A program made the translations under genes and the position numbers. Of a DNA stretch of 64,000 bases, positions 48,595 through 63,080 are shown piece after piece (the first letter of the stretch is position 1; each line of letters opens with the position of its first letter). This stretch comes from Streptomyces marianii (GTDB taxonomy: Bacteria; Actinomycetota; Actinomycetes; Streptomycetales; Streptomycetaceae): the NCBI RefSeq assembly GCF_005795905.1, contig NZ_VAWE01000001.1, positions 2,204,501 to 2,268,500 of the forward strand. The letters are read 5' to 3'. Below the pieces are notes generated by a model. That model did no database searches. It had not been told where the DNA came from and worked only from the letters and a program-made list of their open reading frames with translations.

Positions 48595-49697
48595 CGCTCG
48601 GAGGCGGCGAGCTGGCCGCAGGCCCCGTCGATCTCCTGACCACGGGTGTCCCGGACGGTGACCGGGACACCGTGGGCGGCGATGGCCTCGATGAAGGCCT
48701 TCTCGTCCTCGGGCCGGGAAGCCGTCCACTTGGAGCCCGGAGTCGGGTTCAGCGGGATCAGGTTGACGTGCACCCGCTTGCCCTTGAGGAGCCGCCCGAG
48801 CAGGTCACCGCGCCATGCCTGGTCGTTGATGTCCCGGATCAGGGCGTACTCGATCGAGATCCGGCGGCCGGACCTCTCCGCGTACTCCCAGGCCGCGTCC
48901 AGGACCTCCCGGACCTTCCAGCGGGTGTTGACGGGGACGAGGGTGTCGCGCAGTTCGTCGTCCGGCGCGTGCAGGGACACGGCGAGGCGGCACTTGAAGC
49001 CCTCGTCGGCGAAGCGCAGCATCGCCGGCACGAGGCCCACCGTGGAGACGGTGATCCCGCGCTGCGACAGGCCCAGGCCGTCGGGCTCCGGATCGGTGAG
49101 CCTGCGGATGGCGCCGACCACGCGGTTGTAGTTGGCGAGCGGCTCGCCCATGCCCATGAACACGATGTTGGACAGCCGGGCCGTGCCTCCGGGGACCTCG
49201 CCGTCGCGGAGGGCCCGCATGCCGTCCACGATCTGGTGCACGATCTCGGCGGTGGACAGGTTCCGGTCGAGACCGGCCTGGCCCGTGGCGCAGAACGGGC
49301 AGTTCATCCCGCAGCCGGCCTGCGAGGAGATGCACATCGTCACCCGGTCCGGGTAGCGCATCAGCACCGACTCCACGAGCGTGCCGTCGTGGAGCCGCCA
49401 CAGCGTCTTACGGGTGGTGTCGTCGTCACAGGAGACGTGCCGGACCACGGACATCAGGTCGGGCAGCAACTCCGACGCGAGCCGCTCGCGCGCGGCGGCG
49501 GGGATGTCGGTCCACTGCTCCGGGTCGTGCGCGTAGCGCGCGAAGTAGTGCTGCGACAGCTGCTTCGCCCGGAACGGCTTCTCGCCGATCGCGGCGACGG
49601 CGTCCTTGCGCTCGGCGGGCGTGAGGTCGGCGAGGTGCCGCGGGGGCTTCTTGGCTCCGCGGGGGGCGACGAAAGTGAGTTCTCCGGGCTTAGGCAT
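48591..49697 (-). CDS. rlmN: 23S rRNA / tRNA (adenine-C2) methyltransferase RlmN
   Basis: Radical SAM enzyme that methylates C2 of an adenine in 23S rRNA and in some tRNAs. The 368-residue protein has the cluster motif in [18 protein letters not shown], the SAM-binding [29 protein letters not shown], and the catalytic cysteine close to the C-terminus in [10 protein letters not shown]. Both ends of the gene touch mobile DNA: codons 1-6 lie in the att core of the integrated AICE, and the TAG stop is in the IS481 target CTAG. The reading frame is nevertheless intact. Its upstream region now comes from the AICE. Confidence 0.95.
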
Positions 49698-49719
49698 GGC
49701 CGTACCAGTGTCGCAGATC
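49678..49719. repeat. attL, 42-bp core overlapping the rlmN start
   Basis: Begins AGTTCTCCGGGCTTAGGCAT and ends GTGTCGCAGATC, identical to attR. It covers codons 1-6 and two bases of codon 7 of rlmN plus 22 bases upstream. Confidence 0.93.
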
Positions 49720-49795
49720 CAACCGGGTGGCCTGCGGCTGTCGCTCCCTACGGCTGTCGTTAGTAGTCGTCACCGGTCGTCACTGAGCGGCGTCG

Positions 49796-49816
49796 GACGG
49801 CCCAGGGACGGCCCAG
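49796..49816. repeat. Paired GACGGCCCAG, candidate integrase arm site (left)
   Basis: Two copies start 11 bases apart (49796 and 49807), 77 bases from the att core. The same pair with the same spacing stands 70 bases from the core on the other arm (62948-62968), the arrangement expected for arm-type sites of a tyrosine integrase in attP. Confidence 0.6.
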
Positions 49817-49822
49817 GGGCGA

Positions 49823-50140
49823 TCACTCGCCAGCCGCCCGCCACTCGTCGAGCCGAACCCTGACCTGGTGGTTGTGAGTGGCGTGCCAGAAGACCTCACC
49901 ACTGACGAGGGCCCCTAGGCCCGGGAGGTTCATCCACTGCGGCATGGCCGTGATCTCCGCCAGCGCCACAGCGTCCGGCACACCATCTATGCGTATGAAG
50001 ACCCCGAAGGGCTGGCGACCGATGACCTCTCCGGTGATCCGGGTCCCTACGGGCAGGGCAGCGACGGTTGCCGCCCAGCTCCGCCGCACCTCGTCCGAGG
50101 CCGGCACGTCAGGGCCCGTCGGCCACGCATACTCATCCAT
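49823..50140 (-). CDS. Small S1-domain (OB-fold) RNA-binding-like protein
   Basis: A 105-residue protein whose middle part reads VGTRITGEVIGRQPFGVFIR, the S1/OB-fold opening, followed by ALAEITAMPQWM. It may bind RNA or single-stranded DNA; the role in the element is unknown. The ATG at 50140 gives MDEYAWPTGPDVPASDEV. It is the first gene inside attL and reads towards rlmN. The last 15 or so codons are matched, with about 78% base identity, by sequence just outside attR, so a related gene once ended there too. Confidence 0.7.
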   Translation of the reverse strand: MDEYAWPTGPDVPASDEVRRSWAATVAALPVGTRITGEVIGRQPFGVFIRIDGVPDAVALAEITAMPQWMNLPGLGALVSGEVFWHATHNHQVRVRLDEWRAAGE

Positions 50141-50242
50141 CGCTGGATCATGACATCTCGAGCGATCAGGAGCTTAGAAGAGGTGGCCAGCCCGGTCCCA
50201 GATCGCCTGCGCCACAGTACGTCTCTCTGGTGCAATCTTCTC

Positions 50243-50815
50243 GTGAGCGATTCACTCCTCACCGCAGCCATTGCGGCAGTCACCGCCCTCGTGGCTTCGG
50301 GTATGACCTCATGGTTGACGCTTCGGGGCGTCGTTCGACAAGTAGAGGTGCAACGAGAAGTCGCAGCGCAGGATCATGCCGAGCGACGGGCAGTAGAGAG
50401 CCGGTCGGCGCAAAAGGACGCATGTATCCAGTTCATAGAGACGGCCATCCGCTGCGCTGCGCTCGTCCAACAGACCAGATCGCCCGGCATGGCGGACGAG
50501 GTGCATCAAGATCGATTGGAGGCAGTGCGGGCGGGGCTGGCTGAGCTCATCCGAGCTCAAGCAGTCTTGAGTATCGAGGGACCCAGCAGCGTCGCAGTAG
50601 CCGCCACTGAGGCTCGCTGGAGTCTTGAGCGCGAGTTCGCGACGGCCCTCGACGAACGCACCGGTGCGGCCTCTACTGAGGCAGTGCGCGCTGCAGGCGA
50701 TGCCAGGCGCCGGGCCGTCGGCCGCGTCGGGGGTGCAGCCAGGCGGGCGTTCGGCAACGATGACGGCCCATCCGTGGCTGCTCCATGCGTCGGGGGCGCT
50801 GCGCCACCAGGCTGA
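50243..50815 (+). CDS. Hypothetical protein with one N-terminal membrane helix and coiled coil
   Basis: About 190 residues starting at a GTG (VSDSLLTAAIAAVTALVASG). One membrane helix occupies residues 5-25, and then a charged, helical part (VRQVEVQREVAAQDHAERRA) continues to the end, with no known domain. This layout is common for small Streptomyces proteins of unknown role. A longer reading from 50150 has no conserved sequence. It opens the cargo block next to the two low-GC genes. No function is proposed. Confidence 0.6.
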   Translation: MSDSLLTAAIAAVTALVASGMTSWLTLRGVVRQVEVQREVAAQDHAERRAVESRSAQKDACIQFIETAIRCAALVQQTRSPGMADEVHQDRLEAVRAGLAELIRAQAVLSIEGPSSVAVAATEARWSLEREFATALDERTGAASTEAVRAAGDARRRAVGRVGGAARRAFGNDDGPSVAAPCVGGAAPPG

Positions 50816-51070
50816 GGCAGACTCACCGGACAAGTCCAGCGTTGCCAGCAAGCACATCAACGTCGAACGGCCACTCACGGGCGGCGACCACCTTCCAGAG
50901 GGGCTCTGCCTTGGGCTGGTGTGCCCCTTGTCTGCGCTCGTTGGCGGCAGGCGACCCGCGCTCTACCGGATCGCCCAGAGGAAGGACGATCTTCCCTTTT
51001 GCTGGCAAGCGGACTGTTGAGGGGTCATACTGTCCCACCAGGATGCCAAATCTGTTGGGGGTGGCTTCAG

Positions 51071-52027
51071 TTGGGGAACGCGGGCCGCAAGAAGACCGTC
51101 GCCTTCTATGAGATTGTCAGGCCCAAAGAATCGGGAGACCCCAGGTTTGAGCACCTCGATTGGCCAAGAGTTCTAAGAAATCTTGGAATAATTGAAATGC
51201 GTCAGCGGCGGTATAAGCATGGCGCCGATGTTTACGTAGGTGACCCCATATCAGTGCAGGGTCGTCAACATCTCGTGCTGGCGAGGCTTCGGGATGGAGA
51301 TATCCAACAGATCGATTGGGAGCATAGTCACATTTCCGACTTGAGACTTGATGGGGATCGCAGCGTGGTCGATACCACGATCATTTGCTTCCTTCCCTTC
51401 GGTAATGTGATCGGCGTAATCCAGGGAAGCGCTTCCGCTCCTCGACCGACAGCATTGCAGCGTTGGCTGAATGCTATGAATGTTGTCAATGAAGACTTGG
51501 CCGTCATGCCTTTGGTGGGGAAAAAGGCATGGGAGAAGTTGAGTAACGCCGAAGCAGTCAACCTTTTTGAGATGAGGCTTCGGCCGGGGCAGATGATGTT
51601 CCCTTCGGACGCTGAGGGGTTGGGAGATTTTTCGCGACAAGCGCACAAGCGAAACCCGGATGCGTTAATCACGCTCTCTATGAAGATTCCTAAGCGGCGT
51701 GGCTTCGGGCGTGACACGTCTCGCTCGCGCGGAGAACGACGACTGCGTGAGGATGTCCAGCATTTCATCTCAGACTTCGGCAGCCTGGTCGGGCCTGGCG
51801 GGGCAGTGGATAGAGCAATTGCGCATGTAACTCTGTCAGCTTCAGATGGATCACTTATAGAAGATCAAATCAACTTTGTATCTGACCACATTACTGCACA
51901 GAAGCCGGTTTTCCTGCGCCGGAGCGAAGGGCAGGCCCCCTGGTATGAGGCGGCCGTGCATGCGGTCCTCGACGTGGCTGCGGCCCACGAGGCCGAGCTC
52001 CGCGACGCTGTCAGACCCGTGCCCTAG
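51071..52027 (+). CDS. Soluble protein of unknown function, low-GC cargo gene
   Basis: About 318 residues starting at TTG 51071 (GNAGRKKTVAFYEIVRPKES), with GGGGGTGG six bases upstream; an in-frame ATG at 50921 would add 50 unconvincing residues. It is alpha/beta in character with no membrane helix. The opening KKTVAFYEI pattern recalls uncharacterised DUF6731-like proteins, but I cannot confirm this. Base use is clearly lower in GC than the neighbours, with many A- or T-ending codons and a rare TTA leucine codon at 51665, so translation may depend on bldA tRNA. It is followed after 26 bases by a membrane protein of the same codon use, suggesting a two-gene unit. Confidence 0.72.
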   Translation: MGNAGRKKTVAFYEIVRPKESGDPRFEHLDWPRVLRNLGIIEMRQRRYKHGADVYVGDPISVQGRQHLVLARLRDGDIQQIDWEHSHISDLRLDGDRSVVDTTIICFLPFGNVIGVIQGSASAPRPTALQRWLNAMNVVNEDLAVMPLVGKKAWEKLSNAEAVNLFEMRLRPGQMMFPSDAEGLGDFSRQAHKRNPDALITLSMKIPKRRGFGRDTSRSRGERRLREDVQHFISDFGSLVGPGGAVDRAIAHVTLSASDGSLIEDQINFVSDHITAQKPVFLRRSEGQAPWYEAAVHAVLDVAAAHEAELRDAVRPVP

Positions 52028-52053
52028 GCTCTCACTAGCCGAAGGGGGCAGTG

Positions 52054-52587
52054 ATGGTCAGCGGGTTCCGATTTACTCGGAGAGCTCACAACCTGTGGAG
52101 TGAACATCCCTCCGCGGACTGGATAGGCGCAATAATTTTCGTATCGGCGCTCGGTTTATGGCAGCGCAGTCACATTCTTAGTGATCACTCTGCTGATCAA
52201 CGAATGAATGTTTACGCGACAGTCGCTTCCGTCGCGGCGATTATCGGCGGTTTTGGAACTGCTGCGATTAGCCAGTATGCGACTAGTTCCGGTCGGCGGA
52301 TGACGTTCCTAAGGGAGCGTTTTGGTGAGAGTCTCCGTCGGAACTGGGTGAGTATCCTAACCTCGATGACCGCAGTATCCGCCGGCTGCCTGGCGACTAT
52401 GTTAAGTGACACGGGGAAGGTAATCGGCTGGCAGGGGTGGACGGTTGAATTCTTGCTCTTTCTCGGGCTTTTCCGTGCGGTGCGATTGATCTGGCTCTTC
52501 CGCCTCCTTATCGACGTATCCGATCATGACGGTACAATCGCAGCGAGAAGTGAGCCGGTGAGAATTGTTGACCCGGGGAACGACTAG
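52054..52587 (+). CDS. Four-helix membrane protein, low-GC cargo gene
   Basis: A 177-residue protein with helices near residues 22-38 (WIGAIIFVSALGLW), 53-75 (VYATVASVAAIIGGFGTAAI), 98-117 (VSILTSMTAVSAGCLATML) and 127-150 (VEFLLFLGLFRAVRLIWLFR). A charged loop (SGRRMTFLRERFGESLRRNW) separates helices 2 and 3. No family is recognised. Two TTA codons (52156 and 52402) match the one in the upstream gene. ATG 52054 with AAGGGGG upstream. A soluble sensor plus a small multi-helix membrane partner is a frequent layout of phage-defence or exclusion modules; this is inference. A perfect hairpin ends the unit. Confidence 0.72.
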   Translation: MVSGFRFTRRAHNLWSEHPSADWIGAIIFVSALGLWQRSHILSDHSADQRMNVYATVASVAAIIGGFGTAAISQYATSSGRRMTFLRERFGESLRRNWVSILTSMTAVSAGCLATMLSDTGKVIGWQGWTVEFLLFLGLFRAVRLIWLFRLLIDVSDHDGTIAARSEPVRIVDPGND

Positions 52588-52656
52588 TTCGCGTTTAGCT
52601 TCGCGATGGTTCGCAGTCTCGCGTGGGTGACGAGGACTCAACGATTCAGTTAGCCT

Positions 52657-52690
52657 GCGTGGCGTCGCCTACCCGACGGCGACGCCACGC
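52657..52690 (+). terminator. 13-bp perfect hairpin after the low-GC gene pair
   Basis: GCGTGGCGTCGCC, eight bases, then GGCGACGCCACGC. It closes the unit that begins at 51071. Confidence 0.8.
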
Positions 52691-52922
52691 GTCGGCACAT
52701 ATGGTTTGCGGTTTGGCCTCATCCTTATCAGGTCGATGACGGATTCTTTGGTGCTTGGCGAAGGACAACCTGACGACGGTCTGGTTGACGCTGGGGACCG
52801 CTCCGGTCCGGCTCCGTTCGTCGCTGTTGGTGTCAGCTGTTGATGTCAGACATCAACTGGAGGCTTGACAACTCCCTACCGCTTGGACCTGCTGAATGAT
52901 GTGGCTGTCCCACTAACAGCGA
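52691..52922. other. Gene-free cargo space with a small dyad
   Basis: No gene is convincing in this stretch, which remains lower in GC. GTTGATG-TCAGA-CATCAAC at 52839-52857 is a clean inverted repeat and could be an operator or a short terminator for the convergent gene at 52923. Confidence 0.4.
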
Positions 52923-53507
52923 TCATGTGCCGCGCTCGCCAAGGAGCGAGCCCACGGCTCGAACGAAGGAATCGTGGGCTAGGGCAGAGTTACGGCGTGC
53001 TTCGCGCGCTTCCTCGACAAGGCCCACAGCTAGCGGGTTGGCGTCGTGCAGCGCCTCGGCGAGCGCCATGAGTGCAGATCGGTAGCGCCACACCGCTTGT
53101 TCCAGCTCCACCGCCTTCACATGGATGGCATCGGGTCCCACCAACTTGACGCGCTGCCGTTCCTGCTGAATTACACCCGCCGTTGTGAACATCTCTTCGA
53201 ATTCAGCATCGGGTAGGTCTTCGCCAGGTGACACGTCCGCGACCTTCTGACTGGCTCGATGCGCAACTGGCGCGTGTGCGTCGTAGGCCCCGAGGAGCAT
53301 CGTGTACGCCTCAAGTCGCTGCTGTCGGAGCCAATGATCGTGATCGACGGATGCTTGGTCCTGAACCTGCTGCCGGACAGCCTCTGCAGCCTTCTCCGCG
53401 CCGATGCGAGCGCCTCGTACCGCCGCCACCCCACCAACCAATGCGCCACCCAGAGCCCCCACCATCCCGGCCATGCCGGCGATGAAAGCCGCCATCCCTT
53501 GATCCAT
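52923..53507 (-). CDS. Hypothetical protein with N-terminal membrane helix and helical body
   Basis: A 194-residue protein. Residues 6-32 form a Gly/Ala-rich membrane helix (AAFIAGMAGMVGALGGALVG); the rest is charged and helical (AEKAAEAVRQQVQDQASVDH and later EARRNSALAHDSFVRAVGSL). It is similar in layout, though not visibly in sequence, to the gene at 50243. No domain is recognised. It is transcribed towards the low-GC pair and ends the cargo block. Function unknown. Confidence 0.65.
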   Translation of the reverse strand: MDQGMAAFIAGMAGMVGALGGALVGGVAAVRGARIGAEKAAEAVRQQVQDQASVDHDHWLRQQRLEAYTMLLGAYDAHAPVAHRASQKVADVSPGEDLPDAEFEEMFTTAGVIQQERQRVKLVGPDAIHVKAVELEQAVWRYRSALMALAEALHDANPLAVGLVEEAREARRNSALAHDSFVRAVGSLLGERGT

Positions 53508-53613
53508 ACCGACGATTCTTCACTATCCACCCCCACGCCTCATCCTGTGTGTCTCGCCCGCCCCTCGGGTACCTACGAGCACGGTCGGCGGGAGCGGCTT
53601 TGGGCGGGAGCTG

Positions 53614-53894: not shown

Positions 53895-53942
53895 TGAGTA
53901 GAGAAACTCTTACCGCGTTCTGATCACGCTCGGCCGGTTCGT

Positions 53943-54428
53943 TCAGGCGGCTCGCGTATCGGGCTTCGCGCCGTGCTCGAGGTACACCGGTGCCGCTTCG
54001 GCTCGGGCCTCCATGGCCGCGAGGATGCGTCGGGCCAAGCGCGGGATGGTCCGCCCATTGATCTCATCGGCTGCGACGAACGCGAAGCTCTTCAGCTCGT
54101 CAGCCTGCAAGGTGATCTTCGCCAGAACTTCAGGCGGGAGCTGGCCGCCGTCGAAGAGGTAGAGGACCTTGTCGCCCTCTGTCTCGCTCGGTGCCCAGTC
54201 GACAGCCAGCAAGCGTCCGAGTGGCGGGGTGACCCCCAGTTCTTCCTGGACCTCGCGGATAGCTGCGTGCAATGGCGATTCGCCGGTCTCGACGTAACCG
54301 CCGGGGATCTCCCAGTAGTCCTTGTAGGTCGGCTCCACCATGAGGACCCGTCCCGCGTCATCAAAGAAGAGCGCACCTGCGGCCATGCGCGGATGCGCCA
54401 TCTTCGCTTCGTGTGCGTTCGGTGCCAT
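53943..54428 (-). CDS. Nudix hydrolase, Pif-like (pSAM2 immunity factor) candidate
   Basis: A 161-residue protein with a perfect Nudix box, GYVETGESPLHAAIREVQEE then LGV (G-x5-E-x7-REV-x-EE-x-G-V), near residues 48-70. Nudix enzymes cut nucleoside diphosphates linked to another group. In pSAM2, the Nudix protein Pif blocks transfer into cells that already hold the element; the location here, beside the regulator at one end of the transfer block, matches. Start at ATG 54428 (MAPNAHEAKMAHPRM), just after the stop of the XRE gene. The role in exclusion is inferred from position and family. Confidence 0.85.
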   Translation of the reverse strand: MAPNAHEAKMAHPRMAAGALFFDDAGRVLMVEPTYKDYWEIPGGYVETGESPLHAAIREVQEELGVTPPLGRLLAVDWAPSETEGDKVLYLFDGGQLPPEVLAKITLQADELKSFAFVAADEINGRTIPRLARRILAAMEARAEAAPVYLEHGAKPDTRAA

Positions 54429-54447
54429 GAAGCCGAGCGTACCCAGC

Positions 54448-55662
54448 TCAGACCACGTGCAGCCGGGTGGCCAGGTCGGCCAGAGTGCGGCTCGGCCGGC
54501 CGCGCTGGTTCCGCACCCAGGTGAGTACAAGCTCGCGCGCGAGGTAGTGGCTACGTACCTGCTCTGGCGCCCAGCTCTCCGCTTCGAGGATCTTGATGAG
54601 AGCGTCGTCCATTCGGTTGTGCGCGCTGAGCGCCCGGGCTATTTCGAGGTTGTGGCGCGTACGGCGCTCGGTCGGCAGGGCGCTGGTGTCGATCTGTGGG
54701 CCCAGGTCTATCGCAACCTGCATGTCTCCCAGCTCCGCTGCGGTGGCGACCCGGTGAATCGCCACGTTCGTCGGTCCGAAGGCGGTCCAGACGTGGTTGG
54801 CGTCCTGCCCGAGCTGGCGCGCCATCTGGTCGGCCTCGCTGAGGAAAGTCTGAGTCGTGGACCGGTCTTCCGCGCGGGCTGCAGCCATCGATCCTGCGAG
54901 GAACAGCGTCCCGTAGATCGAAAGAAGCTCAGGGGTCGCTCGTCCGAGTCCCGGCCGCAGGTACTCCCCTGCATCTCCGACGAGCTGCACGGCGGCATCG
55001 AACCTGCCGTTCGATAGCAGGCAGTGGGCCACGGACCGGAAGAGTGAGCCGGTCACGACGGTGTTGCCGGACTGCTGCGCCGCCGCCAGGCCGCGGTCGG
55101 CAGCGATCCATGCGAGATCGGTTTCACCGAGCTTGGTGAGGACCATGGCAGCGCTCTGATAGGTCATGGCCGTCAGCTCGTGGGCTTGTTCTCGCTCTTG
55201 GCCTTCGTACGCCTGGACAGCGATGAGTGCGTCGGCCAGGAGCAGGGGCAGCCGACGGGTAGCGAATCCGTACCGCGAGTCCTGGTAGGCGTCCCAGACT
55301 TCGGCGACGTTGCTGCGCAACTCGTTGATCGGCGTCGGCTCGCCTTCGGTCGTGACCCCCAATAGGGGAGTGAGCTGGCGGTAGTTCATCAGCGCTGAGC
55401 GCAGTGCCGGCACGGTTCGGGTGCCGCTGTCGGCGGTCCAGTCCATGAGAGTCGGCTCGGCGAGCAGGTCGCCAAGAGGGACGTCCAGTGCATCGGCGAG
55501 CGACTTGATGACCGAGAGCCTGTCCAGCTCCAACCGGTTGTTCTCGGCCTTGCTCAGCCAGTCGACGGTGCGGCCGACGAGTCCGGCCAGCACTTCTTGA
55601 GACATCCCGCGCCTCCGGCGGTACCACGCGACTCGTTCGCCGATCGTCAGGTTCGTCGTCAT
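54448..55662 (-). CDS. XRE family regulator with TPR-like C-terminal domain
   Basis: A 404-residue regulator: helix-turn-helix in residues 5-60 (GERVAWYRRRRGMSQEVLAG, VGRTVDWLSKAENNRLELDR) and a long all-helical TPR-like part. Start ATG 55662 (MTTNLTIGERVAW); 55686 is also possible. The Nudix gene starts 19 bases after its stop, so they form one unit. Such XRE/TPR proteins occur in many AICEs and may sense a peptide or other small signal. It is divergent from the small gene at 55800. Confidence 0.88.
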   Translation of the reverse strand: MTTNLTIGERVAWYRRRRGMSQEVLAGLVGRTVDWLSKAENNRLELDRLSVIKSLADALDVPLGDLLAEPTLMDWTADSGTRTVPALRSALMNYRQLTPLLGVTTEGEPTPINELRSNVAEVWDAYQDSRYGFATRRLPLLLADALIAVQAYEGQEREQAHELTAMTYQSAAMVLTKLGETDLAWIAADRGLAAAQQSGNTVVTGSLFRSVAHCLLSNGRFDAAVQLVGDAGEYLRPGLGRATPELLSIYGTLFLAGSMAAARAEDRSTTQTFLSEADQMARQLGQDANHVWTAFGPTNVAIHRVATAAELGDMQVAIDLGPQIDTSALPTERRTRHNLEIARALSAHNRMDDALIKILEAESWAPEQVRSHYLARELVLTWVRNQRGRPSRTLADLATRLHVV

Positions 55663-55799
55663 TCCTCGCATGGGAAGAGCGTCCACCCGTCTCTCAATGC
55701 GACCCCGGAGAGATTTTCCGGGGTGTTGCGCCGGTCCGGTCCTAGCGTTGCTGACAACCCGAGGGGCTGGCAGATCGAACTACGACGAGGGGGCCCACG

Positions 55800-55997
55800 A
55801 TGGCGCTGACCCCGGCCGAAGTGGTGGAACTGATCCGTGATGTCAGGGCACTTGGAGAGGAGGTAGCCGATCTCGCGCGGCGCGCTGATGCGGTGGTCAG
55901 CCGTCTTGCGGATGCTTCCGAACCAGCTGCTCAAGCTGGTCCATCCGATCTGCGAGGCGGCGTACGTCCCGACGAACTTCCGCCAGGTAAGCGGTGA
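55800..55997 (+). CDS. Small hypothetical protein, overlapping the GntR gene end
   Basis: A 65-residue frame: MALTPAEVVELIRDVRALGE, a helical part with ARRADAVVSRLADASE, and a charged tail. GAGGGGG precedes the ATG by seven bases, which is good support for translation. Its last 100 bases overlap the 3' end of the GntR gene on the other strand. No family is recognised; it may be a small regulator in the divergent region of the XRE gene. Moderate doubt remains because GC-rich DNA often gives chance frames. Confidence 0.45.
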   Translation: MALTPAEVVELIRDVRALGEEVADLARRADAVVSRLADASEPAAQAGPSDLRGGVRPDELPPGKR

Positions 55998-56265
55998 TCT
56001 GCTCGAACTCCGGACTGTGCTTAGTCGGGCGGTCCTCGCCGGGGAGAGTCACAAAGCTGCCCTTGCCCTGGTGGGAGTACGCGTAGCCGTCCTCACGGAG
56101 GCGAGAGATCGCCTGGCGGGCCACCGTGCGCGAAACTCCGTGATCGGCCATCAGCTCTGTCTCGGACGGCAACTTGTCCCCCGGGGATAGCACCCCGTCT
56201 CGGATACGCCGCTTGAAGTCGTCGGCGATCTCCAAGTACCTCGCACGCCCGGTGAAGTCGGCCAT
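55897..56265 (-). CDS. Short GntR-type repressor, KorSA-like
   Basis: A 122-residue protein with the GntR winged helix-turn-helix (YLEIADDFKRRIRDGVLSPG, KLPSETELMADHGVSRTVAR, HQGKGSFVTLPG) and then only a short coiled-coil tail (AEVRRDVRRLADRMDQLEQL). The usual UTRA ligand domain is absent. In pSAM2 the GntR protein KorSA represses the replication-transfer operon. The same position, facing the operon across three copies of a dyad, supports that role here. Start at ATG 56265. Confidence 0.88.
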   Translation of the reverse strand: MADFTGRARYLEIADDFKRRIRDGVLSPGDKLPSETELMADHGVSRTVARQAISRLREDGYAYSHQGKGSFVTLPGEDRPTKHSPEFEQITAYLAEVRRDVRRLADRMDQLEQLVRKHPQDG

Positions 56266-56409: not shown

Positions 56410-56766
56410 ATGCGTCAGATTCCTGTCGACACCTCCTCGGCCTCCGTGATGGTGGCGCAGGCCCCGCAGCCCAAGGTGAAGGACCGTCGTACCGGTGAGC
56501 GTGCGATGGACGCGGAGACCGGTGCCGCGCTGTCGACCGTGGACGTGATGTTCGCGGCGAACGGTGAGGTGGAGATCCTTTCCGTGACCGTCCCGGAGAC
56601 CGGCGTCTCCAGCGATCTGGTCATGGGTACTCCGGTCGCGATCACAGGCCTGGTCGCCCGGCCGTGGGAGAACGAGTTCAACGGGCAGCGCCGACACGGC
56701 ATCGCTTTCCGCGCGGTGGCGGTCACGTCGCTGGTCGAGAACGCCGCGAAGCCGAAGGCGGCCTGA
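56410..56766 (+). CDS. SCO3933-family regulatory protein
   Basis: A 118-residue protein, MRQIPVDTSSASVMVAQAPQ and then KVKDRRTGERAMDAETGAAL, matching the SCO3933-type regulators that stand between KorSA and TraSA in AICEs. The second half (VEILSVTVPETGVSSDLVMG) looks like a small beta-rich domain. It is first in the long operon and lies just after the three operators. Its exact action is unknown; activation of replication or excision has been proposed for similarly placed proteins. Confidence 0.8.
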   Translation: MRQIPVDTSSASVMVAQAPQPKVKDRRTGERAMDAETGAALSTVDVMFAANGEVEILSVTVPETGVSSDLVMGTPVAITGLVARPWENEFNGQRRHGIAFRAVAVTSLVENAAKPKAA

Positions 56767-56768: not shown

Positions 56769-58127
56769 ATGTCCCGGCTGTTCGTCGTCCTGGTGCTGGT
56801 CGTCGCCGCCGCGGGTCTCCTGCGGTGGCGGCGCCCCGCCTGGTACTGGCTGACCTTCGGCATCGCCCTCGCGACACTGCGGGTCCTGGTCCGCTACGCC
56901 TCGGTCATGGAGGCGTGCGGGCTGACCGTCCCGCCGCCGCGCTGGCGGCTCGCCCTCGCCCGGATGGCCAACCGACCCGCCCCGGCCTCACGAGCCCCGC
57001 GCATCCTGCGGCTCCGCCCGACCCGTACCGGCCTGGTCCTACGGCTGGGGCTTCGGCCCGGTCAGGACGCCTTCGACGTGGCCGCCTCGTGCGACCGGCT
57101 GCGGCACTCGTTCGCGATGTACGGCGTCACCTCGCGAGAGATCCGCTCCGGCGTGGTCGAGCTGCGGATGACCGGCTACGACGTCCTTGCCCAGGTGCAG
57201 ATGCCGGTCAAGGTCGACCGCACACCGATGCGCGTTCCAGTCGCTCTGCGCGAGGACGGGGCCGTCCACTATCGCGACTACCGCACCTGCCCGCACGCCC
57301 TGACCGTCGGTGCCACGAAGTCCGGCAAGTCCGTCTACCAGCGCAACCTGGTCGCCGAACTCGCCACTCAGGACGTGGCCTTGGTCGGCATCGACTGCAA
57401 GCAAGGGGTGGAGCTGTTCCCGCTGGCCCGCCGGTTCTCCGCGCTGGCCGACAACCCCGACACCGCCGCCGACCTCCTGGACGCGCTCGTCACGCACATG
57501 GAGGGCGTCTACCAACTGATCCGCGCCAACCAGCGCATCACTGCCGACATCCCCGACGCCGAGATCGCAGCCGACATCTGGGACCTGCCGGAGACCCTGC
57601 GCCCGACCCCGATCGTCCTGCTCGTTGACGAGGTCGCCGAACTCGCCCTGTTCGCCACGAAGGAAGAGGAGAAGCGCCGGGACCGCATCATCACCGCGCT
57701 CGCCCGCCTCGCACAGCTCGGCCGCGCTGCCGGCATCTATCTGGAGATCTGCGGGCAGCGCTTCGGCTCCGAACTCGGCAAGGGCATCACCATGCTCCGC
57801 GCCCAGCTCACCGCCCGCACCGCCCACCGCGTCAACGATGAGACCAGCGCGAACATGGCCTTCGGTGACATCGCCCCCGACGCCGTCCTGGCAGCGATCA
57901 GCATCCCGACCGACACTCCCGGCCTCGCCGTCACCGGCGACTCGACCGGCGGCTGGGCCCGCATCCGCACCCCGCACACCTCGATGCGCCAGGCCGTCAA
58001 CGCCTGCAACCGGCACGCCCACCGCACTGCCGAGCTGCCCGGCCTCGCCGCCTTCCGGCCCGAGCTGCCGCCCACGGTGTCGCTCGTCAAGATCCCGGCC
58101 CCGACCGAGGCACCCGCCTCCGCCTGA
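56769..58127 (+). CDS. traSA: TraSA-like FtsK/SpoIIIE conjugal DNA translocase
   Basis: A 452-residue ATPase that moves double-stranded element DNA between mycelia as a hexamer at the membrane. Two helices at the N-terminus (LFVVLVLVVAAAGLLRW, WYWLTFGIALATLRVLVRYA) anchor it. The FtsK core has Walker A in TVGATKSGKSVYQRNLV and Walker B in IVLLVDEVAELALF. Start at ATG 56769, two bases after the preceding stop. In this class a single Tra protein suffices for transfer, unlike type IV secretion. No gamma-like recognition domain is obvious; the C-terminus is short. Confidence 0.92.
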   Translation: MSRLFVVLVLVVAAAGLLRWRRPAWYWLTFGIALATLRVLVRYASVMEACGLTVPPPRWRLALARMANRPAPASRAPRILRLRPTRTGLVLRLGLRPGQDAFDVAASCDRLRHSFAMYGVTSREIRSGVVELRMTGYDVLAQVQMPVKVDRTPMRVPVALREDGAVHYRDYRTCPHALTVGATKSGKSVYQRNLVAELATQDVALVGIDCKQGVELFPLARRFSALADNPDTAADLLDALVTHMEGVYQLIRANQRITADIPDAEIAADIWDLPETLRPTPIVLLVDEVAELALFATKEEEKRRDRIITALARLAQLGRAAGIYLEICGQRFGSELGKGITMLRAQLTARTAHRVNDETSANMAFGDIAPDAVLAAISIPTDTPGLAVTGDSTGGWARIRTPHTSMRQAVNACNRHAHRTAELPGLAAFRPELPPTVSLVKIPAPTEAPASA

Positions 58128-58218
58128 GACCCGCCCTCGCATCCCGGTCGGCGCGACCGCCTCGCGCCAGCTCCCTACCCCCGCCATGCCCAAAACGCCC
58201 TGTGAAGGAGGTGAAGAC

Positions 58219-58899
58219 ATGACCCGCTCACTCCGCGTCGACGCCGTCCTGGTGCAAGCCGTGATCGCCGGGGCCCTGTCCTTCGCCCACCTGCACGACC
58301 TCGCCGCCGCTGCCGGACAGACCGGCTGGAAGGCATGGGCCTACCCGGTCTCAGTCGACCTGCTCCTGGTCGCCGCCTGGCGACGGCTCCGCAACGACGG
58401 CCCGTCCCGGCTCGCCTGGTGCTGGTTCCTGATCGCCCTGGTCGCCTCGCTCGGCGCGAACGTCGCAACCGCCGGATTCCTCGACCTCCAGCATCCGCCC
58501 GCCTGGCTGCGCTTCGGCATCGCCGGATGGCCCGCCCTCGCCTTCCTCGGCGGCACACTCCTCGCCCACTCACCCGCCGCGACCGACCCCGCACCTGAGT
58601 CGAAGCCTCAGCCGGTCGAGCATGTGCCGGCCGAATCACAGGCCGCCCCCGAGCCGGTTCCCGTCGCCGAACCGGAGACCGCCCCCGAGCTGCCCCCGGC
58701 CGCGCCCGCAGCGCCCGCAGCGCCCGAGCCCAATCCGGCCCCGGCTCAGCCCATCCCGGCCGCCCTGGTCGACCACGCCCGCAAGGTCGCCGACGACCAC
58801 CACGCCCGCACCGGCACACCAATCGACACCGACACCCTGCGCACCCGCCTCGGCGTCCCGGCCCCGATGGCCGACGCCATCGCCGCCCAACTCGCCTGA
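58219..58899 (+). CDS. DUF2637 membrane protein, SpdB-type spread protein
   Basis: A 226-residue protein with four hydrophobic stretches (LVQAVIAGALSFAHLHDLAA, YPVSVDLLLVAAWRRL, LAWCWFLIALVASLGANVAT, AGWPALAFLGGTLLAHS), a long Pro/Ala/Glu-rich linker and a C-terminal helical part with DHARKVADDHHARTGTPIDT. DUF2637 proteins of this form are found in the spread (spd) operon of Streptomyces plasmids and AICEs, where they help intramycelial movement of DNA. AAGGAGGTG precedes the ATG. Confidence 0.85.
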   Translation: MTRSLRVDAVLVQAVIAGALSFAHLHDLAAAAGQTGWKAWAYPVSVDLLLVAAWRRLRNDGPSRLAWCWFLIALVASLGANVATAGFLDLQHPPAWLRFGIAGWPALAFLGGTLLAHSPAATDPAPESKPQPVEHVPAESQAAPEPVPVAEPETAPELPPAAPAAPAAPEPNPAPAQPIPAALVDHARKVADDHHARTGTPIDTDTLRTRLGVPAPMADAIAAQLA

Positions 58900-58917
58900 G
58901 CAGAAAGGACGACCGCG

Positions 58918-59112
58918 ATGCCCGCCCGCGACCACTTTCACTCCGTGATGCGGATCGGCCCCGTGCAGATCGGCACTCACCGCGACCGGCACGGCCGCAC
59001 CAAGCACGCCGCCGTGTGCACCGCCGACCGCTGTGGCTGGTCCGCGGACTTCTCCAGCTCCTCGGCCGCCCAGCTCGCCGCCCGTACCCACCGCTGCCGC
59101 ATCACCGACTGA
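58918..59112 (+). CDS. Small mobile-element transfer protein
   Basis: A 64-residue protein, MPARDHFHSVMRIGPVQIGT, then CTADRCGWSADFSSSS and AARTHRC. The RIGPVQIGTHRD-G-GRTKHAAVC pattern is that of the small proteins labelled mobile element transfer protein in many Streptomyces AICEs. The cysteines and histidine could bind zinc. It lies 18 bases after the DUF2637 gene, in the spread block. Confidence 0.8.
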   Translation: MPARDHFHSVMRIGPVQIGTHRDRHGRTKHAAVCTADRCGWSADFSSSSAAQLAARTHRCRITD

Positions 59113-59128
59113 ACGGGAGACCACCGTC

Positions 59129-59287
59129 ATGGACGTTCCGCTCTGGCTCGCGCTGATCGTCGTCGGCGCCCTCGGCATCAAGCTCATTCGCCCGCCCTGG
59201 TGGCTCGTCGCTGTGCTCCTCCTCGGCGGCTTCCTCCTCGCCGACAGCCTCCTGGCCCCCGTCATCGACACCGCCATCAGCAAGTAG
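59129..59287 (+). CDS. Small two-helix membrane protein
   Basis: A 52-residue hydrophobic protein: MDVPLWLALIVVGALGIKLI and PWWLVAVLLLGGFLLADSLL. It is part of the spread block; no family name can be given. The spacing to the neighbours (16 and 24 bases) and codon use support a real gene. Confidence 0.7.
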   Translation: MDVPLWLALIVVGALGIKLIRPPWWLVAVLLLGGFLLADSLLAPVIDTAISK

Positions 59288-59311
59288 CCCACCGCAGAAA
59301 GGAGACCTGCA

Positions 59312-59629
59312 ATGTTCCGACCGAAGATCCCCACCATGCCGACCCCGACCGGCATCGTCACCCCGCCCGCCGTCGAGCCGACCGCGATCGTCCAGCACAC
59401 CCCGGCCCCCGTCCCGGGCTCTGTCGCCCCGGCGGCACCGGCCCGGCCCACGGTCCAGCTCACGCCCGGCACCGCGCTCGCCCTCGTCGGTGGCGGCACC
59501 GCCGTCGTCCTGGTCGTCGGCGCGGTCCTGGTCTCGATGCTCCTGGCGGTCGCCGTCACCGCGGCCTCGGTCGCCGTGTGCGCACTCGTCGTCCGCTCGC
59601 TCATCGCCTCCGAGCACAAGCGCCGCTGA
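59312..59629 (+). CDS. SpdD-like spread protein
   Basis: A 105-residue protein with a Pro-rich N-terminus (MFRPKIPTMPTPTGIVTPP) and a hydrophobic C-terminal half (LALVGGGTAVVLVVGAVLVS, MLLAVAVTAASVAVCALVVR), the layout of SpdD proteins of Streptomyces plasmids. Likely acts at septal membranes with TraSA. AGAAAGGAG ahead of the ATG supports the start. Confidence 0.8.
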   Translation: MFRPKIPTMPTPTGIVTPPAVEPTAIVQHTPAPVPGSVAPAAPARPTVQLTPGTALALVGGGTAVVLVVGAVLVSMLLAVAVTAASVAVCALVVRSLIASEHKRR

Positions 59630-59720
59630 CCGGCCCCCGGGGCGGTCTCAACCGCCAAGTCTCGCCCGCCCCGGAAGCCGTGCCCCAACCCATCGCAAAG
59701 GACAAGAAGGGACACTCATC

Positions 59721-59909
59721 ATGGCCCAGCCCACCACCACGCCCGCGCGGGTCTGCTCGAACTGCGACGGCTTCCCCACCGTCCGCGTCACCCTCGGCGG
59801 CCGCGACCGACACGGCAACCTGCGCACCATCACCGTCCACTGCCCGGCCTGCCACGGCACCGGCACCCGCCCCGCCCGCACCGCCCAGCTTGTTGGGGGC
59901 CGGGCATGA
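59721..59909 (+). CDS. Small zinc-ribbon-like protein
   Basis: A 62-residue protein with two CxxC pairs, RVCSNCDGFPT and VHCPACHGTGT, like half of a DnaJ-type zinc finger. Such small proteins are regularly found between spd genes and repSA. The role is unknown; binding DNA or another Spd protein is possible. The stop overlaps the next start by four bases. Confidence 0.75.
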   Translation: MAQPTTTPARVCSNCDGFPTVRVTLGGRDRHGNLRTITVHCPACHGTGTRPARTAQLVGGRA

Positions 59910-60136
59910 ACGACATCACCGTCACCGCGCACCTGACCCCCGACACCCGCACCCGCTTCGTCCTCTTCGCCGACCACGAGTTCGTGAACGTGCGTATCGG
60001 CGGCGGTCCCGTCGACGTCGTGCTCATCGCCCCCGCCGGCACCGCCGACGTCCTGCGTGCCATCTCCGCCGCCGCCGACCAGGCCGCCCGCGAACTCGAC
60101 GACCTGACCACCACACCCGCCGAGGAGAGCGCGTGA
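59906..60136 (+). CDS. Small hypothetical protein upstream of repSA
   Basis: A 76-residue soluble protein, MNDITVTAHLTPDTRTRFVL and FADHEFVNVRIGGGPVDVVL. No domain is recognised. Four-base overlaps on both sides (ATGA with the zinc-ribbon gene, GTGA with repSA) place it firmly in the operon, so it is translated in step with the replication protein. Confidence 0.7.
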   Translation: MNDITVTAHLTPDTRTRFVLFADHEFVNVRIGGGPVDVVLIAPAGTADVLRAISAAADQAARELDDLTTTPAEESA

Positions 60137-61509
60137 CGAACACCGCCACTGCGGCGGGCCTGGACCCGGCCACCCTGGACGATGTCCTCCGGGTGGCCGG
60201 GTCCCCCGGCTTCGACCGCTGGAAAGACCAGGTGCACCGCACCGGCGGCTGCTCCGACCCCATCCACCTGACCGGCTGGACCCTCGCCAAAGACAAGACC
60301 ACCGGCGAGACGCTGCGCCGCTACTCCACCGAGCACGAGCCGGACGGACGACTCCGCGTCGCCTGCGGCAACCGCCGCGCCTCCCGCTGCCCCACCTGCG
60401 CCTACACCTACGCCGGAGACACCTACCACCTCATCCGCGCGGGCCTGTCCGGAGACGAGTCCAAGGACATCCCGGCGACCGTCCGGGATCACCCCCGCGT
60501 CTTCGCCACCCTCACCGCGCCCTCGTTCGGCCCCGTGCACAACCGGCCCGACCGTGGCGTCTGCCGCTGCGGCACCCGCCACCCCGAAGACGACCCCGCC
60601 CTGGGCACCGCCCTCGACCCGGCCACCTACGACTACGCGGGCACGGTCCTGTTCAACAACCACGCCGGGCAACTCTGGCAGCGCTTCACCACCCGGCTCC
60701 GCCGTGAGATCGCCGCCCGCGCCGGACTCACCCAACGCGAACTCAAAGACGTGCTGCGGGTCTCCTACGGCAAGGTCGCCGAGTTCCAGAAGCGCGGGGC
60801 GATCCACTTCCATGCCGTGATCCGCCTCGACGGACCGGACGGCCCCGACTCGGCGCCGCCCTCCTGGGCCACCGTGCAGCTGCTCACCGACTCCATCCGC
60901 GCCGCCGTCGCCCACTCCTACACCTCGATCACCGTCCCGGCCGCCGGAGACCAGCCGTGCCGGCCTTTCCGCTGGGGCTCCCAGCTCGACATCCGCCCCG
61001 TCAAAGCCTTCGGCGATGGGACCGACATCACTGAACAGGCTGTCGCCTCCTACGTCGCCAAGTACGCCACCAAGGCGGCCGAGTCGACGGGCAGCCTGGA
61101 CCGCCGGATCGGGAACCGGGAGGTGCTCGACCTCCTGGACCTGCCCGACCACGCCCGCCGTCTCATCGAAGCCTGCCTCGACCTCGCCCCCCTCTATCCG
61201 GACCGCAAGCTGGGCGCCTGGGCTCACATGCTCGGCTTCCGCGGCCACTTCTCCACCAAGTCCCGCCGCTACTCCACCACCCTCGGAGCCCTGCGTCAGA
61301 TCCGCGCCGACTACCGCGCCGCCCAGGAACACGACGCTCTCGGCGACCCGGACACCGTCCTCGTCCTCGCCTCCTGGGAGTACGCCGGGCACGGCCACAC
61401 CCCCGGCGAATCCGCCCTCGCCGCCACCATCGCCCGCGACATCCAACTCAACCGCGAAACCGCCCGCGAAGCCCTACGCGACCAACTCGCCGACGAAAGG
61501 GAGTGCTGA
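60133..61509 (+). CDS. repSA: RepSA-type replication initiator (rolling circle)
   Basis: A 458-residue protein starting at GTG 60133, coupled to the preceding gene. The HUH motif of rolling-circle initiators is in GAIHFHAVIRLDG near residue 228, and the catalytic tyrosine segment in SYVAKYATKAAES near residue 310. A zinc-ribbon-like part (CGNRRASRCPTCAYTYAGDT) precedes them. It would nick the element's double-strand origin after excision and start replication. The length and motifs fit the RepSA/RepRB class of pSAM2-like elements. Confidence 0.92.
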   Translation: MTNTATAAGLDPATLDDVLRVAGSPGFDRWKDQVHRTGGCSDPIHLTGWTLAKDKTTGETLRRYSTEHEPDGRLRVACGNRRASRCPTCAYTYAGDTYHLIRAGLSGDESKDIPATVRDHPRVFATLTAPSFGPVHNRPDRGVCRCGTRHPEDDPALGTALDPATYDYAGTVLFNNHAGQLWQRFTTRLRREIAARAGLTQRELKDVLRVSYGKVAEFQKRGAIHFHAVIRLDGPDGPDSAPPSWATVQLLTDSIRAAVAHSYTSITVPAAGDQPCRPFRWGSQLDIRPVKAFGDGTDITEQAVASYVAKYATKAAESTGSLDRRIGNREVLDLLDLPDHARRLIEACLDLAPLYPDRKLGAWAHMLGFRGHFSTKSRRYSTTLGALRQIRADYRAAQEHDALGDPDTVLVLASWEYAGHGHTPGESALAATIARDIQLNRETAREALRDQLADEREC

Positions 61510-61511
61510 CC

Positions 61512-61709
61512 ATGGCCTCAGAGCTGCCGAACCGGTTCCTGACCCCTGAGGACCTGGTCGAGATGTTCGAGCTGCCCAGCGTCGAGACGGTCTACCAGTG
61601 GCGCCGCAAGCGCACCGGCCCCCGCGGCTTCCGCGTCGGCCGGCACCTCCGCTTCGACCCCATCGACGTACGGACCTGGGTCGACTCCCAGATCGGGGAA
61701 GCTGCCTGA
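61512..61709 (+). CDS. xis: Excisionase (Xis), MerR-like helix-turn-helix
   Basis: A 65-residue protein, FLTPEDLVEMFELPSVETVY then QWRRKRTGPRGFRVGRHLRF, a winged helix-turn-helix of the excisionase class. It bends the att arms so that the integrase excises the element. ATG 61512 is chosen over GTG 61503 because AAAGGGA lies well placed for it. It ends on the integrase start. Confidence 0.92.
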   Translation: MASELPNRFLTPEDLVEMFELPSVETVYQWRRKRTGPRGFRVGRHLRFDPIDVRTWVDSQIGEAA

Positions 61710-62971
61710 TGGCCGGACACATCCAAGACCGCTGGTACCGGGCAGAGGTCGGACCGGACGGCAAGACCTGCAAGGTCAAGACCGACCGCCACGGTTCGGG
61801 ACTGCGCTACCGGGCCCGGTACGTCGGCCCGGACGGAACCGAGAAGTCCAAGAGCTTCCCGGATCGGCACAAGCGGCTCGCCGAGCAGTGGCTGACCGAG
61901 ATCGCCTCGGACATGTCCCGCGGTCGCTACATCGATCCGCGCGCAGCTCGGATCACCTTCAAGAGCTACGCCGAGAAGTGGCTCAAGACGCACGGCATCG
62001 ACCCGGCCAGTCAGGTCGTGGTCGAGCAGCGGTTACGCCTGCACGCGTTCCGACTGATCGGCTCTCGCCCCTTGGATTCATTCCGCCCGGAACACATCCG
62101 GGGCTTGGTGAGCGCGCTGGAGAGCGACCCGGCCGTGAGTGGCGGCTATGCGAAAAACATCTACGGCGACGTACGGGCGGTACTCAGTGCGGCGGTTGAC
62201 GATGGGTTGCTGCCCCGCAATCCGTGCTCCGCGAAGTCCGTCCGCCCGCCGGCCGCCGAGCAACGCCGTGTTGTGCCGTGGCTGCCTGCCCAGGTTCAGG
62301 CGGTGCGTGCGGCACTCCCCCAGCGCTACCGGCCCATGGCGGACGTGGGCGCCGGGTGCGGGCTCCGTCAGGGCGAGATCGTGGGACTGGCGGAGGATGC
62401 GCTCGACTTCGACGGCGGCATCATCCGGGTCGTCCGGCAGGTGAAGCTGATCCGGGGCAAGGCCGTGTTCGCTCCTCCGAAGTGCAACAAGGAGCGGGAC
62501 GTACCATTGCCGCCGTCGGTTGCCGAGGCTCTGCGGGCCCACATGGACGCCTTCAAGCCGGTGGAGATCACCTTGCCCTGGCGCAAGCCGGACGGCCCGA
62601 AGGTGTCTGCTCGCCTTCTGTTCACAAACACCGCGAGCGGTCTCGTCTGGCGCAGCAACTTCAACATCCAGGAGTGGAAACCCGCTCTCGCGGAGGCTGG
62701 CCTGATCGCGGAAGCCGGTGATGACGGCAAGTACCCGTCGGCTCGCGAGCACGGCATGCACGCGCTGAGGCACTTCTACGCCTCGGTACTGCTGGACGCC
62801 GGGGAGAGCATCAAGGCCGTGAGCGAGTACCTGGGGCACGCCGACCCCGGGCTGACGCTGCGGGTGTACGCGCACCTGATGCCGTCGAGCCAGGAGCGTA
62901 CGAGGAAGGCCGTGGATCGGGTGCTCCTCCCGGCCCCGCGCGAGCCTGACGGCCCAGAGACGGCCCAGTGA
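61709..62971 (+). CDS. int: Tyrosine recombinase (integrase) of the AICE
   Basis: A 420-residue site-specific recombinase. The N-terminal AP2-like arm-binding part and the SAM-like core-binding domain (ITFKSYAEKWLKTHGIDPAS) precede the catalytic domain. The active-site residues are the arginine in GCGLRQGEIVGL, HALRHFYASVLLD (H-x-x-R), GHADPGLTL and the nucleophile in RVYAHLMPS. Its last codons contain the paired GACGGCCCAG arm repeats. The start overlaps the xis stop by one base. A terminator hairpin and attR follow. Confidence 0.95.
   Translation: MAGHIQDRWYRAEVGPDGKTCKVKTDRHGSGLRYRARYVGPDGTEKSKSFPDRHKRLAEQWLTEIASDMSRGRYIDPRAARITFKSYAEKWLKTHGIDPASQVVVEQRLRLHAFRLIGSRPLDSFRPEHIRGLVSALESDPAVSGGYAKNIYGDVRAVLSAAVDDGLLPRNPCSAKSVRPPAAEQRRVVPWLPAQVQAVRAALPQRYRPMADVGAGCGLRQGEIVGLAEDALDFDGGIIRVVRQVKLIRGKAVFAPPKCNKERDVPLPPSVAEALRAHMDAFKPVEITLPWRKPDGPKVSARLLFTNTASGLVWRSNFNIQEWKPALAEAGLIAEAGDDGKYPSAREHGMHALRHFYASVLLDAGESIKAVSEYLGHADPGLTLRVYAHLMPSSQERTRKAVDRVLLPAPREPDGPETAQ
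62948..62968. repeat. Paired GACGGCCCAG, candidate integrase arm site (right)
   Basis: Copies start at 62948 and 62959, 11 bases apart, inside the last codons of int, 70 bases before the att core. Mirrors the left arm pair. Confidence 0.6.
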
Positions 62972-62981
62972 CCCGCACCAG

Positions 62982-63016
62982 GCCCCCTATCCGCGCCAAA
63001 CGCGCTGGTAGGGGGC
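62982..63016 (+). terminator. Terminator after int
   Basis: GCCCCCTA pairs with TAGGGGGC, with an inner CGCG-CGCG pairing, then TTAT. It stops the element's operon just before attR. Confidence 0.75.
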
Positions 63017-63058
63017 TTATCGCTGCCCGCTGACCGCCAGTTCTCCGGGCTTAGGCAT
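63017..63058 (-). CDS. Orphan 13-codon rlmN leader ORF created by integration
   Basis: Reading leftward from the displaced rlmN start in attR gives MPKPGEL, as in rlmN, then AVSGQR and TAA in element DNA. The native rlmN upstream region should still drive it. It is a by-product of integration and is not expected to have a function, though it reports whether that promoter is active. Confidence 0.6.
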   Translation of the reverse strand: MPKPGELAVSGQR

Positions 63059-63080
63059 GGCCGTACCAGTGTCGCAGATC
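63039..63080. repeat. attR, 42-bp core
   Basis: Identical to 49678-49719 over 42 bases; the flanking bases differ at both ends, which sets the core limits. Confidence 0.93.

Follow-up and report, generated by a model that had tools for sequence, protein, structure and literature searches.

How can a mobile element settle in the first codons of a housekeeping gene and leave that gene with a start? The question is raised by a 64-kb stretch of the Streptomyces marianii genome (the window; positions 2204501-2268500 of its contig), in which the gene rlmN abuts an actinomycete integrative and conjugative element (AICE). A first-pass annotation of the window had placed this element at the 5' end of rlmN instead of at a tRNA gene. 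It is very likely that an AICE of about 13.36 kb lies between two copies of a repeat, that its tyrosine integrase inserted it inside an 11-bp segment of rlmN, that its attachment site (attP) carries a start cassette for the gene, and that an older scar lies outside it.

The repeat and the integrase

Two identical 42-bp direct repeats were found at 49678-49719 and 63039-63080, 13361 bp apart from start to start, as the first-pass annotation had described. The chance of an exact 42-bp match within 15 kb is far too low to explain them. The left copy had been read as the rlmN start codon with codons 1-6 and 22 bp upstream, and the sequence bears this out: it comprises 2 nt of codon 7, codons 6-1, the start codon (49695-49697) and 22 bp of upstream DNA. 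The right copy begins 67 bp past the int stop codon, after a terminator-like hairpin recognized by eye. At up to three mismatches, a 28-base piece of the core (bases 3-30) was found at two sites only in the 9.0-Mb genome. Beyond the 42 bp the likeness extends to 210 bp at 82% (49678-49887 against 63039-63248), the two flanks running parallel for 168 bp after the core. ARAGORN found no tRNA gene across the window; a tRNA was therefore rejected as the target, and insertion at the rlmN 5' end stands.

Genes typical of an AICE are present between these repeats: an integrase with an excisionase, a Tra protein of the FtsK/SpoIIIE type and a replication initiator of its own. The int, xis and RepSA genes lie beside the right copy, and Tra, the Spd genes and a GntR-type regulator lie inside, in agreement with the first reading. 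Moreover, a short motif, ACGGCCCAG, occurs five times on the plus strand of the window, and all five copies fall in the two arms of the element or in the scar, which holds a single copy at 63158; the minus strand has one. A GGCCCAG pair at the same two positions before the end of int was found in 15 of 80 related loci, with variants in others, loci at other target sites included. The ACGGCCCAG repeats are likely candidates for arm-type integrase sites.

A scan of genome contigs with the integrase as query confirmed 384 relatives, and the analysis went on with the best 80. In 39 of these loci int lies beside cdsA, and 38 of the 39 carry a copy of the core at no more than nine mismatches. One locus with cdsA and no core at this threshold (L033) was counted as an rlmN site, and another has the core on a contig that stops short of cdsA (L021). 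The integrase tree contained 80 rows (79 loci and the window; L075 fell outside), 41 labelled as rlmN-site and the remaining 39 as other or undecided. L048 was placed with the other sites, although its 6-kb contig is too short to tell. The site label changes 4 times on this tree versus 26.9 times in shuffles. The integrase of the window falls within a 12-row clade made up entirely of rlmN-site loci (support 100/99), and further rlmN-site rows lie outside it, adjoining two groups with other sites. Judged by its sequence, it belongs to a clade that uses the rlmN site. Thirty rlmN-site loci include a full 10 kb to the left of int; homologues of tra, repSA and xis occur together in 17 of them, of xis alone in 12 and of repSA with xis in one, from which it follows that this integrase serves AICEs of the window's type as well as other kinds of cargo.

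The crossover segment and the start of rlmN

Pairs of attachment (att) sites were sought without a motif in 138 loci with an rlmN start, which gave 23 pairs at no more than 14 of 42 mismatches. An earlier count had demanded AGTTCTCC[GA]GG and GGCAT in both copies, and its common 11 bp were partly built in. One locus had no usable pair (L134), and in another the right copy was cut by the end of the stretch (L130). Repeat bases 1-9 and 11 are identical in all 23 pairs and base 10 in 22, the exception being a decayed copy (L192). Immediately to the left of the repeat only 3 of the 23 pairs share the base, so the left edge of the repeat is sharp. On the right, base 12 agrees in 20 of 23 pairs; L013, L036 and L039 diverge there (L013 by one base). 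The att pairs of other genomes therefore trim the core, at most to 11 bp, and the 42-bp core of the first-pass annotation is not upheld: strand exchange over the whole 42 bp is improbable, and it probably took place in the 11-bp segment AGTTCTCCGGG, within codons 4-7. Further right, the blocks GGCA and GCAGA (apart from one letter) are also the same in every pair, and exchange there is possible in pairs other than these three.

In L039 the rlmN side reads TGCAGGCATAACCC, and the cdsA side retains the CTTAGGCATGGTTC of empty sites. On the cdsA side both codons and spacer are of the empty-site type, and the rlmN-side copy differs from base 12 onward. This pattern places the crossover inside codons 4-7 and has the element bring codons 1-3 along with the start codon and all that lies upstream of it. 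That the start codon and first codons are supplied by the element is thus indicated by L039 and L036; in the window the two copies are identical. In the named loci, rlmN-side copies end in GCAGATC in 8 of 8 cases, and 10 of the 12 copies within 125 bp of cdsA end in GCAGAC (L011 and L032 differ). The occupied sites of L131, L132, L133 and L153 are exceptions, reading GCAGAC or a variant on the rlmN side.

The following course of events is proposed. The tyrosine integrase would insert the AICE most likely inside the 11 bp of codons 4-7. To the right of this segment, attP would carry, as element DNA, codons 1-3 with the start codon, followed by a spacer of 9 nt and a fixed block, TCTGCGACACT. 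After integration rlmN would begin in element DNA, in frame, and the displaced start region would come to lie behind int, antisense into it. The target in the window would not have been free: an earlier relative of the element would already have placed its left end in front of rlmN, and the new insertion would have pushed this scar outward. Int and Xis acting on both copies would free a circle, joining rlmN to the older scar; RepSA would replicate the circle and Tra and the Spd proteins would transfer it.

The start of rlmN was then compared across the genus. Where the site is empty in relatives, the next gene upstream of rlmN is cdsA. For 20 genomes picked for a GCAGAC ending, the rlmN-cdsA gap is 85-166 bp in 13 and 698-1886 bp in 7; for 20 picked for GCAGAT it was measurable in 18, at 172-8741 bp. 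These picked sets were followed by an even draw, in which RlmN was found in 101 of 101 genomes. Besides the window's own genome, 97 of 100 were analysed; G017, G050 and G037 were left out before counting (two with rlmN on short contigs or near a contig end, one a 68% outlier). An attB-type start was found in 72 genomes, 67 of them with a measurable gap, the five without cdsA in the fetched stretch being excluded from the gap counts. Among these 67, the gap is at most 250 bp in 21, 251-500 bp in 4 and more than 500 bp in 42, versus 21, 2 and 2 of the 25 genomes with another type of start (Fisher p = 1.1e-5 with the limit at 250 bp and 1.5e-6 with it at 500 bp, values that overstate the evidence because the two types are probably clades). 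One genome (G091, gap 893) had fallen in the second group by pattern, its block being one base off; moving it to the attB type gives gaps above 500 bp in 43 of 68 versus 1 of 24. The GATC mark was found in 31 of 46 attB-type genomes with a gap above 250 bp and in 2 of 21 at or below it. The rlmN start site appears, from these comparisons, to have been hit repeatedly across Streptomyces.

The fixed block itself is strongly conserved: TCTGC[GC]ACACT is exact in 69 of 72 attB-type genomes, and its 9-nt spacing to the ATG is kept in 71. A Shine-Dalgarno-like match precedes rlmN in 6 of the 72 versus 24 of the 25 other-type genomes (24 of 24 once G091 is moved). The genus has two kinds of rlmN start, one Shine-Dalgarno-like and one with the fixed block, mostly without such a match, and the latter accompanies long rlmN-cdsA gaps. 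Leaderless mRNAs make up about 21% of the primary starts of S. coelicolor, with a -10 motif of TANNNT, according to the available part of the source (PMC4895711). GACACT matches two of the three fixed letters of that motif, so the cassette may plausibly contain the promoter of an rlmN mRNA with no leader or almost none. Tentatively, and with somewhat less than even confidence, we propose that in attB-type Streptomyces the rlmN start (promoter-like block, start codon and first codons) is a transferable cassette. In most such species the region upstream of rlmN would come from mobile elements that were inserted repeatedly and have mostly decayed; it would have been retained since an rlmN lacking a Shine-Dalgarno sequence is still driven by the cassette. 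The displaced start, antisense to int, could damp the integrase as long as the element is integrated.

Several observations weigh against this account. The right edge of the 11-bp segment comes from 3 of 23 pairs, of which L013 possibly reflects a point mutation, and the pairs were found by similarity, so divergent ones are under-sampled. The same 6-nt spacer stands on both sides in four of the seven pairs read as having a native-type right flank (L127, L132, L181 and L183) and differs between copies in the other three (L039, L129 and L153); given the equal spacers, a cassette that is always element-borne needs conversion or a shared origin. The block matches a -10 region only in part, and a -35 was not seen. 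The GATC mark of the element type is absent in 12 of the 42 genomes with a gap above 500 bp, and the survey genomes are phylogenetically non-independent. Excision and transfer, lastly, are predictions from the sequence.

The strongest competing reading, which we consider unlikely though worth weighing, is that the TCTGCGACACT block and the mimicry of the start codon serve integrase binding and not rlmN expression. Its distance of 19-29 bp to the crossover segment puts the block within the inferred reach of a tyrosine integrase. It is nevertheless retained in attB-type genomes that are free of an insert, at its fixed distance from the ATG, and there the Shine-Dalgarno-like match is mostly missing; these points argue against a role in integrase binding alone.

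Less likely again is an element that is complete in sequence and has lost its mobility. The family integrase is still present in just 9 of the 72 attB-type genomes (and in 0 of the 25 others), which means that decay is common at the rlmN site; Tra and RepSA homologues were found in two attB-type genomes (G055 and G059). In the window, on the other hand, int, xis, repSA, tra and spdB are open, RepSA scores above its curated cut-off, and repeat copies and arms are intact. The element is probably self-transmissible. No free circular form was found in plasmid searches. The plasmid match listed first was an 18.5-kb circular plasmid of Streptomyces sp. NBC_00562, with an integrase 59.1% identical, and the second (60.3%) lay on a 192-kb plasmid. 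No rlmN cassette was found on the NBC_00562 plasmid (best match 19 of 42 mismatches), and its integrase probably has another target. Searched against plasmids, 63010-63090 had short matches in 351 records, one of them from Streptomyces, and no match reached 80% coverage; the 42 bp alone gave two, neither from Streptomyces nor covering 80%. Among phage integrases, the best places were below 60% in 1090 of 1090 matching records.

The right flank

To the right of the element, the flank was read on beyond the window end. The order after the scar is a 260-aa open reading frame (ORF) without a family, a lipoprotein-like ORF (by eye), an IS30-family transposase gene (window-equivalent 65343-66566; 2843-4066 in L004; NF033563, 302 bits, cut-off 80), cdsA and frr. 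The cdsA product is phosphatidate cytidylyltransferase-like, its best model reaching 96 bits, below the cut-off of 385, and frr scored 207 bits (cut-off 149); pyrH, tsf and rpsB come next by eye. The 3' end of cdsA, at window-equivalent 66673, is 3.6 kb from the right repeat copy. Both copies in the window end in GCAGATC. After the right one come 168 bp similar to the left end of the element itself, and the two features together mark an older insertion: 63081-63248 is apparently a scar left by a related element that had inserted before. Such a scar at the target would account for both the 42-bp match of the copies and the likeness over 210 bp.

The genome closest by RlmN (99%, of 100) provides a comparison without an AICE. 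There rlmN adjoins an element-like left end, after which come about 0.9 kb, a 77.6% homologue of window-equivalent 64458-65286 and then cdsA, with no room for the IS30-family gene. Its scar is 85% identical to the end of the window's AICE (40 bp of rlmN included) and 77% to the window's scar.

The first-pass annotation had the right copy adjoin native upstream DNA. A single simple insertion of that kind, with a 42-bp core, fits the 42-bp identity and the int-proximal place of the right copy, but is very improbable. The right copy ends in GCAGATC, unlike 10 of the 12 named copies close to cdsA, and the left-end-like 168 bp after it have an arm motif of their own; moreover, cdsA is 3.6 kb away versus 85-166 bp in empty sites. 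On these grounds, and on the layout of the closest genome, a native right flank was rejected.

Equally little probability attaches to a second tandem element, still mobilisable, in place of a dead scar to the right of 63080. The left-end likeness of 82% over 210 bp is in keeping with it. AICE accretion has been published, at one tRNA-Arg site in the available text of PMC9513070 and for Frankia and S. avermitilis in that of PMC3218068. Against it, no third copy of the 28-base core piece was found genome-wide at up to three mismatches, and the ORFs called from 63080 to cdsA include no int, rep or tra; a second intact element was rejected for these reasons. Duplication of the repeat by an assembly error has a negligible chance, as the copies differ on both flanks and past the 42 bp, the same layout recurs in other genomes (e.g., L006 and L007), and the contig is 8.4 Mb long.

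Gene content and known systems

The features of the element and its target are listed in Table 1. pSAM2 has Xis and Int adjoining att and the Tra, Spd and GntR modules, as in the window's AICE. The label pSAM2-type given to the element earlier holds for its replication initiator, a RepSA equivalog common to both (NF041486 above cut-off). It fails for the target: pSAM2 integrates at a tRNA 3' end and the element of the window, which has no tRNA gene in it, at the 5' end of rlmN.

Table 1. Features of the AICE, its target gene and its flanks, with positions in the window.
Feature	Position	Strand	Basis
rlmN target gene, 368 aa, start codon 49695-49697	48591..49697	-	NCBIfam TIGR00048, 322 bits, cut-off 290
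Left 42-bp copy, attL	49678..49719		repeat alignment, att-pair comparison
AGTTCTCCGGG, 11-bp segment with inferred strand exchange, rlmN codons 4-7	49678..49688		att-pair identity profile
TCTGCGACACT block, rlmN sense, 9 nt before ATG; proposed -10 region	49707..49717	-	conservation, attB-type genomes
Left arm, two ACGGCCCAG repeats 11 bp apart (49797/49808)	49797..49816	+	motif search
105-aa ORF at left end of element; weak S1-domain match below cut-off	49823..50140	-	homologues in L018, L110
Cargo ORFs, 368 aa (50921-52027) and 178 aa (52051-52587)	50921..52587	+	no family
194-aa ORF	52923..53507	-	no family found
NUDIX protein	53943..54530	-	PF00293, 69.2 bits
Large XRE-type regulator	54448..55686	-	PF13560
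GntR-type regulator	55897..56265	-	many GntR-family models, every match below cut-off
SCO3933-family regulatory protein	56410..56766	+	NF051478, 146.9 bits, cut-off 80
Tra, FtsK/SpoIIIE DNA translocase, 452 aa	56769..58127	+	PF01580, 146.7 bits
DUF2637 spread-type membrane protein	58219..58899	+	PF10935, matched in longer frame 57625-58899
SpdB mobile element transfer protein	58918..59112	+	PF05122, 104.5 bits
RepSA replication initiator	60136..61509	+	NF041486, 851.7 bits, cut-off 700; PF20199, 505.4 bits
Xis, HTH_17 excisionase-like, 65 aa	61512..61709	+	PF12728, 34.3 bits
Tyrosine integrase, 420 aa, rlmN-site clade	61709..62971	+	PF00589, 54.8 bits
Right arm, two ACGGCCCAG repeats 11 bp apart (62949/62960), at int stop codon	62949..62968	+	motif search
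Right 42-bp copy, attR of the 13.36-kb AICE; right side element-type, not native-type	63039..63080		repeat alignment
Apparent scar, left end of earlier related element, ACGGCCCAG arm at 63158	63081..63248		sequence comparison

As an AICE the element is nothing unusual in Streptomyces, and insertion at its site is already on record, contrary to the first impression of an insertion unusual in kind. In the available text of PMC9513070, 14 of 51 AICE insertion sites are protein-coding genes, and AICE03 of Streptomyces RLB3-6 lies in rlmN with an 11-nt direct repeat. This is the length inferred here for the crossover segment, although the window's own repeat is 42 bp and its 11 bp come from the pairs of other genomes, so the two are likened by length and not by letters. 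The terms promoter, start codon, N-terminal, reading frame and disrupt are absent from the main text of that paper.

Another record may concern the same place in S. coelicolor, where we take SCO5645 to be rlmN and SCO5628 to be cdsA. The islet Gi-14 (SCO5632-SCO5644) is given there as 10.4 kb with plasmid-related functions, a 52-bp repeat with five mismatches and no tRNA nearby (PMC1934918, in its available part). SCO5645 is called a hypothetical protein in one passage. Going by this table description, Gi-14 is probably an element at the same rlmN place.

Insertion at the 5' end of a housekeeping gene is also known from SXT in prfC and IMEVchUSA3 in dusA, where the element supplies promoter and N-terminus (PMC8409611, in the part available; SXT as cited there). 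By analogy, the attP of the window's AICE seems to hold a start cassette for rlmN, in the way that those elements carry one for prfC and dusA. Both are from Gammaproteobacteria, and the expression of dusA after integration was measured, whereas that of rlmN is only inferred. In the open-licence literature searched, no paper joining rlmN, Streptomyces, an integrase and an attachment site was found, nor were the start-cassette reading of rlmN, its recurrence across the genus or the scar structure. The wider pattern is what may be useful: an integrase clade for the rlmN 5' end, a crossover segment of about 11 bp, mapped empty sites and long gaps in over half of the target-bearing genomes. RlmN methylates A2503, a position in 23S rRNA that is associated with drug binding, and through this role one could directly follow how mobile elements replace the start region of its gene. 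Laboratory vectors could also gain a new integration site from the integrase.

Among the remaining genes, the GntR-type regulator is presumably KorSA-like, judged by its position, and the NUDIX protein is possibly, by analogy, a Pif-like conjugal immunity protein. Run on eight proteins, PADLOC gave only weak HTH-type matches (the XRE protein) and the candidate-defence model PDC-S07 (the NUDIX protein). The cargo pair at 50921-52587 is low in G+C by eye and matched no Pfam, NCBIfam or PADLOC family; it looks like an imported pair.

The sister integrases at other sites (39 tree rows) are 63-69% identical to that of the window, and several have ACGGCCCAG-type arm repeats near the int stop as well. 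Neither a core at up to nine mismatches nor cdsA was found in their fetched stretches, and 22 other-site loci contained no tRNA gene. A repeat search in these elements gave mostly short, chance-like repeats, which give no more than hints of their targets. In L056, L061, L079-L081 and L084, int adjoins the 3' end of a gene ending in ...NQGKK, presumably the phosphoglycerate mutase gene gpmA, judged by this C-terminus; the group of L035, L037 and L040 is located at a site containing CTCAACTC. In a further locus (L106, genome G190) a full 42-bp core lies near position 1280 with rlmN not adjacent in the fetched stretch; it may belong to the far end of a large element or be a copy that was displaced.

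On the far side of the target gene, an IS481-family transposase gene (47584-48594; 371 bits, cut-off 224) lies tail to tail with rlmN, ending at the rlmN stop codon with an overlap of 4 bp, and rlmN therefore has mobile DNA on either side.

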